A stretch of DNA of 36,524 bases from Sphaerobacter sp. (lineage in GTDB: Bacteria > Chloroflexota > Chloroflexia > Thermomicrobiales > Thermomicrobiaceae), in NCBI RefSeq assembly GCF_019683595.1, contig NZ_JADGHZ010000019.1, positions 1 to 36,524 of the forward strand, written 5' to 3'. Each line of letters opens with the position of its first letter. The stretch's first letter is position 1. Position numbers and translations under genes: made by a program. The notes below the pieces were generated by a model, which made no database searches, had not been told where the DNA came from, and worked only from the letters and a program-made list of their open reading frames with translations. Positions 25,548 through 27,764 of this stretch are shown here, piece after piece.

Positions 25548-26255
25548 CTAGACCTCCTGGACGGTGTCCTCGGTCGCCGCCGTCTGCTGTTGCTGCTGTT
25601 GGGCACGGACCGCGCTGAGGAACTGGTAGACGGCTGTCTGCAACGCGGACTCCGGCAGGGCGCCTACGTGGATATTGACGAGCTGGCCCTGCCAGAAGAA
25701 CGCCAGGGTCGGGATCCCTTGCACCCGGTACCGCATCGCCAGCGACGGCTCCTGGTCGACATTCACCTTCACGAACCGCACCAGACCGCGGTACTGCTCG
25801 GCGAGCCGTTCGAAGACCGGCGCCATCATCTTGCAGGGGCCGCACCAGGGTGCCCAGAAGTCGACGACGACCGGGATGTCCGCCTGCAGGACCTGGGCGT
25901 CGAACGTAGCCGTCGTGACCTCGATGACCGCGTTCTTCGCCGCTTCCTCCGCCGCCTTGGCCGCGGCCCGCTCTTCCTTGCGCTTGGCCAGCGCCTCGGC
26001 GGCTTCGGCCTCGGTCATCTCGCCAAGGGTACGCGCCTTGAGGACCTCAAACTCGTCCGGGTCCGGGGTGTAGCGGATCGCGTAGCGGTCGCAGAAGTTG
26101 ACGCAGGGACCGGGGCAGGTGCCGCAGAGGGTGCTGTCGATGACCACCTGCTCGGTGGCGGCATCGAAGAAGAACGCCTGCTCCGGGCAGCGCCGGGCCG
26201 GGAAGCATCCGGCGAAGTTTCGATCACAGACGCTGGGATCGATTACGGCAGGCAT
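25548..26255 (-). CDS. Ferredoxin-like / thioredoxin fusion protein
   Basis: A 235-residue cytosolic protein of three parts. Residues 1-60 are Cys-rich: Cys10, Cys17 and Cys23, then the cluster LCGTCPGPCVNFCDRYAI with Cys44, 47, 51 and 55. This resembles a ferredoxin 4Fe-4S module in spacing (C-x2-C-x3-C-x3-C) but is not canonical. Residues about 75-110 are a charged Ala/Glu/Lys helix (EAAEALAKRKEERAAAKAAE), a likely coiled linker. Residues about 110-220 are thioredoxin with active site WAPWCGPCK (Cys138, Cys141), DQEPSLAMRY and the cis-Pro loop GIPTLAFF. The tail has six consecutive Gln. ATG 26255 is chosen because AAAGGAG lies upstream; an in-frame ATG at 26300 is less likely. It is followed by the B3/B4 gene one base later. 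The fusion suggests electron transfer between an iron-sulfur centre and a disulfide. Confidence 0.88.
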   Translation of the reverse strand: MPAVIDPSVCDRNFAGCFPARRCPEQAFFFDAATEQVVIDSTLCGTCPGPCVNFCDRYAIRYTPDPDEFEVLKARTLGEMTEAEAAEALAKRKEERAAAKAAEEAAKNAVIEVTTATFDAQVLQADIPVVVDFWAPWCGPCKMMAPVFERLAEQYRGLVRFVKVNVDQEPSLAMRYRVQGIPTLAFFWQGQLVNIHVGALPESALQTAVYQFLSAVRAQQQQQQTAATEDTVQEV

Positions 26256-26289
26256 CGAGTTGCGTGCTCCTTTCGTCACCCAAGCAGTG

Positions 26290-26456
26290 TCATACGTCAT
26301 GCGTCATACGTCATACGTGATGCGTGTTGCGTATTCCGTGTTGCGTTCCCCTCACCCCCGACCCCTCTCCCACAAGGGGAGAGGGGAGGAACACACAATA
26401 CGCAAAACGCGTCACGTATGACGCATGACGTATGACGTGTGACGCATCACGCATCA
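26290..26456. repeat. Symmetrical heptanucleotide palindrome with central hairpin
   Basis: The left arm (26290-26345) consists of eight consecutive 7-base units beginning TCATACG, TCATGCG, TCATACG, TCATACG, TGATGCG, TGTTGCG. The right arm (26401-26456) is eight units of the complementary pattern CGnnnnA (CGTATGA, CGCATGA, CGTATGA, and so on). The centre holds a perfect 10-bp hairpin CCCCTCTCCC (26362-26371) / GGGAGAGGGG (26377-26386). The whole can fold into one long imperfect stem. The last heptad, CGCATCA, supplies the stop codon of the glycosyltransferase. No flanking duplication is seen. Confidence 0.9.
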
Positions 26457-27764
26457 CGCCGACGCGATGACCGGATTTGCTGCGGCGAGGTGCTCGTAGA
26501 CCCCGAGCACTGCCGAGGTGATCGTCTGCCACGAGAAGTGGACGGCCGCCTGACGTGCACCGACCTGCATGCGGGATCGCAGATCGTGGTCGATCAGCAC
26601 GCGGCGCAGGGCCGCGGCCAGCGCGGCGGGGTCGGAGTGCGGGACGAGCAGGCCGGAGATGTCGTCCTCGATGGTGAACCGCAACCCGCCGACGCGGGAG
26701 GCCACGATCGGGGTGCCGCAGGCCATCGCCTCGACGGCCACCAGCCCGAACGACTCGTAGCGCGAAGGGACGGCGCAGACATCCACCGCGTTGTAGTAGA
26801 GCGGCAGCCGCTCGCGGGGCTGGGCGCCGTGAAAGAGGACGTAGTCCGAGAGGCCGAGCGCTTCGGCCCGGGCGGCCAGCCGTTGCAGGTCGGCGTCCAT
26901 CGTCGAGCCGTGGTCGTCGATCTGGATCAACCCGCCGACGAAGACGAGCCTGGGCGCTGGTCCCTCCCACTCATGGTCGTGGACGAGGCGCCGGAAGGCG
27001 TCGAAGAGGGTGTCGATCCCCTTCACCGGGTCGATGCGGCCGACGAAGAGGACGAGGGGACCATCCGGCAGGCCGAGACGGTGACGCGCGGCGTAGCCGT
27101 CCGCGGGGCGGAACCGCTCCAGGTCGACGCCCGGCGGAACGGTGTGGATGCGTGCCGGGTCCGCGCCGAGCCGGTGGATCATCTCTTCGCGCTCATCGGG
27201 GTTGGCCGAGATGATGGCATCGGCCAGGTCCACGAGACGGCGCTCCACCTGGAGACGGAGGGTGGTTTCGCGGTGCTCATCTTGAGCCACGGCGTTCTTC
27301 AGGTGGGCCAGCGTGTGGAACATCAAGACGAGCGGCGCGTCGATGTAGCGGCGAAGCAGGTGGCCGGCCCAGCCTGACAGCCAATAGTGGGCGTGGATGG
27401 CGTCGTAGCGGAGCCCCTCGCTGATGGCGAGGTAGGCGACGTCGCTCGCGAACTCCGGGAGATAGCAGAACAAGGAGTCCTTGTCGATTGGGTGAGGCGG
27501 GCCAGCCTCCACCTGGATCAGGCGCATACCCTCCATGATGGGCGTGATCTGCGGGGAGAGTCGATCCGTGCGCCGGGTATAGATGTCGACGGCAACGCCT
27601 CGTTCGACGAGGTGCCGGCTCAGCTCCCGCACGTAGACGTTCATGCCGCCCGCGTCTCGCCCGCCGAACATGGCGAAGGGAGACGTGTGGACCGAGATCA
27701 TCGCAACCCGCTCCACGTGCGGAGGCACGAAGAGCGGTGATGTGATTTGCTGTGCGCTTTGCAC
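26454..27764 (-). CDS. GT4 family glycosyltransferase (MshA/sucrose-phosphate-synthase-like)
   Basis: A 436-residue GT-B fold glycosyltransferase predicted to transfer a sugar from a nucleotide donor, acting in the cytosol. The N-terminal domain has VHTSPFAMFGGRDAGGMNVY and HAHYWLSGWAG. The C-terminal nucleotide-sugar domain has VLFVGRIDPVKGIDTL and the E-x7-E motif in YESFGLVAVEAMACGTPIVA. This combination is typical of the MshA / sucrose-phosphate synthase group, but the acceptor cannot be deduced. The start at 27764 leaves a 22-residue tail before VERVAMISVH; GTG or ATG codons closer to that core are possible. The stop codon and last bases come from the heptad repeat. The thioredoxin fusion gene begins about 200 bases further downstream on the same strand. 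Confidence 0.88.
   Translation of the reverse strand: MQSAQQITSPLFVPPHVERVAMISVHTSPFAMFGGRDAGGMNVYVRELSRHLVERGVAVDIYTRRTDRLSPQITPIMEGMRLIQVEAGPPHPIDKDSLFCYLPEFASDVAYLAISEGLRYDAIHAHYWLSGWAGHLLRRYIDAPLVLMFHTLAHLKNAVAQDEHRETTLRLQVERRLVDLADAIISANPDEREEMIHRLGADPARIHTVPPGVDLERFRPADGYAARHRLGLPDGPLVLFVGRIDPVKGIDTLFDAFRRLVHDHEWEGPAPRLVFVGGLIQIDDHGSTMDADLQRLAARAEALGLSDYVLFHGAQPRERLPLYYNAVDVCAVPSRYESFGLVAVEAMACGTPIVASRVGGLRFTIEDDISGLLVPHSDPAALAAALRRVLIDHDLRSRMQVGARQAAVHFSWQTITSAVLGVYEHLAAANPVIASA

Follow-up and report, generated by a model that had tools for sequence, protein, structure and literature searches.

Locus and neighbouring genes

The element described here occupies positions 26290–26456 of the window, i.e. 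of the whole analysed stretch of 36,524 nucleotides from Sphaerobacter sp. (contig NZ_JADGHZ010000019.1 of the assembly GCF_019683595.1). It is situated between two genes of the minus strand, the order on this strand being a glycosyltransferase gene, the element and a gene with a thioredoxin domain. The glycosyltransferase gene (26454–27764, minus strand; Pfam PF00534, 8.5e-41, and PF13439, 2.7e-32) has an uncertain start, at 27716 or 27764, and its translation ends with ...VIASA*. Its TGA stop codon (26454–26456, minus strand) coincides with bases 1–3 of TGATGCG, the outermost heptad of the element, and the identical TGA is found at the identical place in S. thermophilus. The element indeed supplies the stop codon of the upstream gene, as was stated in the initial annotation. 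The downstream gene, modelled at 25548–26255 of the minus strand, harbors the thioredoxin domain at its C-terminus (PF00085, 1.6e-32). Its open reading frame is listed up to 26300; the ATG at 26255 suits the sequence AAAGGAG (26267–26273, minus strand), a probable ribosome binding site of this gene that is conserved in S. thermophilus as well as in Bu17, which has no palindrome here. The element lies 34 nt upstream of this start.

Architecture and predicted fold of the element

The left arm (26290–26345, plus strand) is composed of eight heptads directed inward to the core, in the order TCATACG, TCATGCG, TCATACG, TCATACG, TGATGCG, TGTTGCG, TATTCCG and TGTTGCG. As can be seen from direct reading and a regular-expression search, all eight follow the pattern TnnTnCG perfectly; tandem repeat calls cover 26289–26346. 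The right arm (26401–26456, minus strand), also read directly, comprises eight heptads of the opposite orientation. Six of them fit the mirror pattern CGnAnnA, and two imperfect ones (CGCGTCA at 26408 and CGTGTGA at 26436) are each off by one transition. The single pattern ascribed earlier to all units is therefore kept throughout the left arm and in six of the eight units of the right one.

The perfect hairpin at 26362–26386, recognised by sequence reading and by the fold, is CCCCTCTCCC-ACAAG-GGGAGAGGGG, with a 10-bp stem free of mismatches and a 5-nt loop, ACAAG. It is embedded in a GC core, CCCCTCACCCCCGACCCCTCTCCCACAAGGGGAGAGGGG (26348–26386, plus strand), which is asymmetric: CCCCTCACCCCCGA stands 5' of the hairpin. 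The arrangement of eight plus eight heptads around a 10-bp hairpin was thus described correctly in the initial annotation, but this larger asymmetric core was missed there. Alignment of the cores of different copies and the matches found across the order and the phylum identify the core as a member of a repeat family dispersed across the order. The inner right stretch AGGAACACACAATA (26387–26400, plus strand), when compared with other copies, consists of degenerate heptads of the TGTTCCG/TATTGCG class, which is the class usual on that side of the core.

The RNA fold predicted for the plus strand has an energy of −109.8 kcal/mol (z −14.9), which was reached by none of 200 dinucleotide shuffles. 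Against dinucleotide shuffles z amounts to −12.0 with DNA parameters and to −11.1 for the minus strand as RNA. A search of the element against Rfam gave no match above the gathering score, only sub-threshold chance miRNA-like matches. Two terminator-like calls fall within an arm. On neither strand is the core stem or the long stem followed by a T-run, which rules out a classical intrinsic terminator.

Dispersed copies of the element

Three genomes were compared: the source Sphaerobacter draft (3.89 Mb; G000), S. thermophilus DSM 20745 (G001; an assembly of two contigs of 2,741,033 and 1,252,731 bp; the published genome has 3,993,764 bp, PMC3035262) and the MAG Sphaerobacter sp. Bu17 (G002). 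The search for the element revealed many dispersed copies, at least 40 in the source genome (40 of 262 candidates scored) and about as many in each of the other two, all copy numbers being minima. The heptad-array pattern gives 289, 428 and 545 overlapping matches in the source genome, S. thermophilus and Bu17, respectively, and zero matches across 18 further genomes from the family; as an armless unit, the GC core is dispersed through the order and the phylum. The heptads are mostly TCATGCG, TCATACG and TGATGCG, which stand in tandem and point inward from both sides of the core. This supports a real dispersed element of the MITE/REP kind, present in many copies and with counterparts in relatives; the condition under which the initial annotation would be refuted, a single occurrence lacking a counterpart, does not hold.

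A second palindrome, CCCCTCTCCCAAnnTTGGGAGAGGGG, is more numerous and was found at about 100 places of the source genome (e.g. L035, L038–L048). It belongs to the core family without heptad arms, is often preceded by CCCTCACCCCCGG or followed by its complement, and at times forms inverted pairs (L036, L042). The same GC core was also found in another phylum, in the MAG of Planctomycetaceae bacterium RYN_439 (L209, L211), where it forms inverted pairs with a partly conserved spacer of less than 100 nt; the arms are absent, which rules out these matches as heptad-armed copies.

Position at gene ends and register with the stop codon

According to a purpose-built ORF scorer based on codon usage, 52 copies are located between codirectional genes, 21 between convergent and 3 between divergent ones, and one copy lies inside a gene; the counts for divergent and convergent gaps differ with p 0.0003. 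Stop codons lie at a median of 6 nt from a copy and starts at a median of 57 nt. The arrays begin at the stop codon of the neighbouring gene or a few bases away from it, mostly in a 7-nt register with the stop. Among the 38 gene ends of the source genome with an array no more than 31 nt past the stop, 31 are in register (chance 1/7, p 3e-20). A stop codon followed by NNCG is present at 23 of the 38 array-bearing gene ends vs 9 of 47 control ones, and the typical outermost heptad is a stop codon plus nnCG (TGATGCG, TGAGGCG, TAGGGCG). Heptads beginning with TGA are enriched at the outermost position (37/136 vs 64/571, p 8e-6). The register is partly automatic where the stop is provided by a heptad itself, because TGA fits only positions 1–3 of such a unit. 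At the site L003 the element-free gene of Bu17 terminates at the same codon with a TGA of its own, so the stop there seems, from this comparison of sequences, to be older than the array.

Comparison of sites between species

To compare the gaps, the flanks of source-genome copies were mapped onto S. thermophilus, which gave 37 distinct sites. The core is present in both genomes at 32 of these; at one of them (L016) it is too decayed in S. thermophilus to be oriented. At the 31 comparable sites the orientation of the core, which like the gene context given above partly rests on a draft genome, is the same in 20 cases and inverted in 11, the window site being among the inverted ones. Inversion calls were discarded as unreliable for L143 (no core in S. 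thermophilus), L027 (a different centre), L029 (a near-symmetric bare palindrome) and the decayed L016. At three sites (L139, L147 and L019) it is S. thermophilus whose core orientation departs from both the source genome and Bu17, and at L015 the source genome is the odd one out. This distribution argues against the flips being merely an artifact of the draft assembly.

S. thermophilus has no element at L002 and L017, where heptad-like remnants are retained, and its counterpart of L143 is not recognisable. Two sites differ in another way. Opposite the source copy L027, which has the usual GC core, the heptad arms of S. thermophilus surround a wholly different centre (L264, G001:C2:659800–661000). 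Opposite the heptad-armed element L029, S. thermophilus carries a bare GC palindrome (L269, G001:C2:1103200–1104400).

The resemblance between orthologous cores and arms exceeds that of random pairs only modestly (z 3.3, 6.4 and 2.8). The core subtype containing GGACGGAG, assigned like the other subtypes from the core sequence alone, is found in 17 of 32 copies in S. thermophilus vs 4 of 33 in the source genome. The hairpin loops also occur in both orientations, ACNAG and CTNGT. Most sites thus keep their occupancy between the sister species. What changes is the number and kind of the heptads as well as the subtype of the core and its orientation.

Relation to known repeats

A search of the literature gave no description of the element; neither the combination of its features nor the stop-codon register was found in the papers searched. 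It resembles REP in the broad sense, which are likewise palindromes dispersed in many intergenic regions (here at least 40 in the source genome), and like REP/BIME it mostly follows the ends of coding regions, in gaps between codirectional or convergent genes (52 and 21 vs 3 divergent; median 6 nt from the stop). Some REP dimers are nested within longer palindromes (PMC3733652). Unlike REP/BIME, the whole Sphaerobacter element is ~150–170 bp long, has arms of tandem 7-mers and is not flanked by a RAYT gene. A partner gene for a Y1 transposase of the IS200/IS605 type (RAYT) was looked for: the source genome and S. thermophilus each contain one Y1_Tnp gene, neither of which is flanked by the core or heptads, and around 27 Y1_Tnp loci of relatives no clear enrichment was seen.

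Two particular REP groups were considered and rejected. A GTAG REP is a short palindrome with an unpaired GTAG at one of its ends, and GTAG-23 REP is present in the related Thermomicrobium roseum (PMC3733652); the aligned copies of our element have no conserved GTAG beside the core and no link to RAYT. The CGTC REP are defined by a CGTC tag, a stem of 8–9 bp starting with A/T, a loop of 4–5 nt and a CCA-like tail (PMC3733652); the stem of the element has 10 bp and starts with G/C, and there is no CCA tail. CGTC does stand before the core in most copies of the genus because the heptad array ends there, and it is absent beside the core in the copies outside the genus.

MITE-like palindromes of bacteria such as YPAL/RU-2, ERIC and NEMIS (PMC2229807) are similar to the element in their size of ~100–170 bp, in their ability to form long stem-loops and in being co-transcribed with their neighbours. 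They have, however, a fixed consensus, and several of them possess terminal repeats and target duplications, whereas the arms of the Sphaerobacter element are heptads variable in number with no visible target duplication. Multi-copy intergenic tandems of 7-base units are also known, namely TAACTGA in Beggiatoaceae (PMC4679880) and G-rich heptamers in Xanthomonas and Nostoc (PMC4692102). The TAACTGA arrays at times overlap stop codons (PMC4679880), but they are direct repeats located mostly near starts, whereas in Sphaerobacter two opposed arrays enclose a hairpin at the 3' end of a gene. The closest parallel to the flipping is given by the hairpin-loop inversions of chloroplasts (PMC3351433), where a stem-loop segment at a gene 3' end, enclosed by inverted repeats, is flipped in related genomes as it is in Sphaerobacter. 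Those inversions are single organelle sites, in contrast to the Sphaerobacter element, which is a bacterial family dispersed over the genome and flips at two nested levels, the loop and the whole core.

Origin and possible role of the element

With a probability of roughly two in three, the element belongs to a REP/BIME-like family of interspersed palindromic repeats that is specific to the genus Sphaerobacter, with arms of tandem heptads, with a stable RNA hairpin at the gene 3' end and with a centre that flips by means of its own arms. The sequence probably represents a REP-like DNA element giving an RNA hairpin at the 3' ends of genes rather than a chance microsatellite or a switch of a single gene. 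In the simplest reading, slippage inside the arrays would account for the turnover of heptad number and type, and the core may be flipped when the inverted arms recombine or the template is switched from one arm to the other; the 10-bp stem would let the loop flip likewise. Such flips would be tolerated because the palindrome would work in both orientations. As suggested by its position and fold, the element would be co-transcribed with the upstream gene and form a very stable hairpin at the end of the message. This hairpin might shield the message from 3' exonucleases, aid termination or slow the terminating ribosome. REPs of E. coli no more than 15 nt from the stop codon were reported to stall ribosomes (PMC12306157).

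It is possible, though we consider it rather doubtful, that the element is a selfish or neutral mobile repeat of the MITE type, which has spread by transposition into 3' ends that merely tolerate it and whose hairpin has no function. The family is dispersed, and its rarity in divergent gaps would be expected if promoters refuse insertions. The comparison of gaps gave two sites (L003/L135 and L141/L280) filled in both the source genome and S. thermophilus and apparently empty in Bu17; these are too diverged in Bu17 to delimit a target duplication. No clean recent insertion was found between the source genome and S. thermophilus, however, and the remnants at the two S. thermophilus absences do not favour one either; no target duplication can be defined and no transposase is linked to the copies in a search that covered the Y1 type. 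Transposition alone also leaves the exact start of the array at the stop, in the 7-nt register, unaccounted for.

The initial annotation suggested that pairing keeps the element and proposed, as one of its options, an RNA stem controlling the downstream thioredoxin gene. The very stable predicted fold and the location between two codirectional genes, just before the thioredoxin start, are in line with this. The pairing was checked by comparing the right arm of the same copy with those of other copies as a partner of each left arm (81 copies, which include orthologous ones, so the entries are not independent). Within-copy complementarity is 17.4 and between-copy 16.7 (z 1.8), and the median rank of the own partner is 0.48, i.e. 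the own arm is no better match than a foreign one. The copy in the window pairs better than most (rank 0.85). The complementarity of the arms is explained by the use of one heptad vocabulary in inverted orientation on both sides. Selection on pairing copy by copy is not supported, and neither is a structured RNA maintained by covariation. The same element occurs, in addition, at tens of unrelated genes. At the window site itself the core is reversed in S. thermophilus, and Bu17 keeps the gene pair and the ribosome site with the core and arms gone and only heptad-like traces left. Specific control of the thioredoxin gene by the element is therefore unlikely as judged from these sequences, and the full proposal of a stem held by compensatory pairing for this purpose is very improbable.

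Equally improbable is a chromosome-organising site recognised by a protein that acts in the nucleoid, in segregation or in replication. A weak hint was obtained on chromosome 1 of S. thermophilus, where the copies are denser near the replication origin (35 positions, Rayleigh p 0.0007; dnaA at C1:440), but these positions were taken from similarity-ranked matches and replicon 2 is not significant (p 0.11). The core orientation, moreover, flips freely, and the placement tracks stop codons. Chance slippage, leaving a plain microsatellite whose hairpin is accidental, would agree with the slippage-like gain and loss of heptads between orthologs but is practically excluded by the dispersed family, i.e. 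by tens of copies of one architecture in three species, and by the fold (z −14.9).

The REP-like repeat proposed here adds to the bacterial interspersed palindromes an architecture in which heptad arms of variable number surround a hairpin core, and it provides a natural system of many small hairpin centres flipped between sister species. It also ties palindromic elements to the stop codon to the exact base. Should the register have a functional basis, the copies would offer a direct test of whether post-stop hairpins govern the release of ribosomes or the stability of messages; should it stem from insertion, an undescribed targeting mechanism would be indicated.

Heptad palindromes in other genera

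Inverted heptad arrays with long stems were also found in two genera (G023 and G027; L213–L225, L233–L252) that belong to a different family within the order. They are built of other heptads (TAGTCCG or CGTACTT/CGTCGTT), have unrelated centres and contain no GC core. In these loci, chosen for holding arrays so that the fractions are not genome-wide, an array begins no more than 40 nt past the stop at 10 of 18 gene ends in G027 and at 6 of 7 in G023, many of them within 7 nt. As in Sphaerobacter, the within-copy complementarity of the G027 palindromes is not significant (z 1.7). One may speculate that all these belong to a class of palindromes locked to the stop codon, in which lineage-specific 7-mers are laid from the stop and mirrored past a variable centre by an undescribed process, although we regard such a class as unlikely. 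Were it real, the recurrence would be accounted for by an enzyme dedicated to the process or by selection for a role in ribosome release or at message ends. The reversed pattern that served as a control in the heptad search matches 23 times in G022 and 122 times in G031, which suggests arrays of yet other 7-mers in these genomes.
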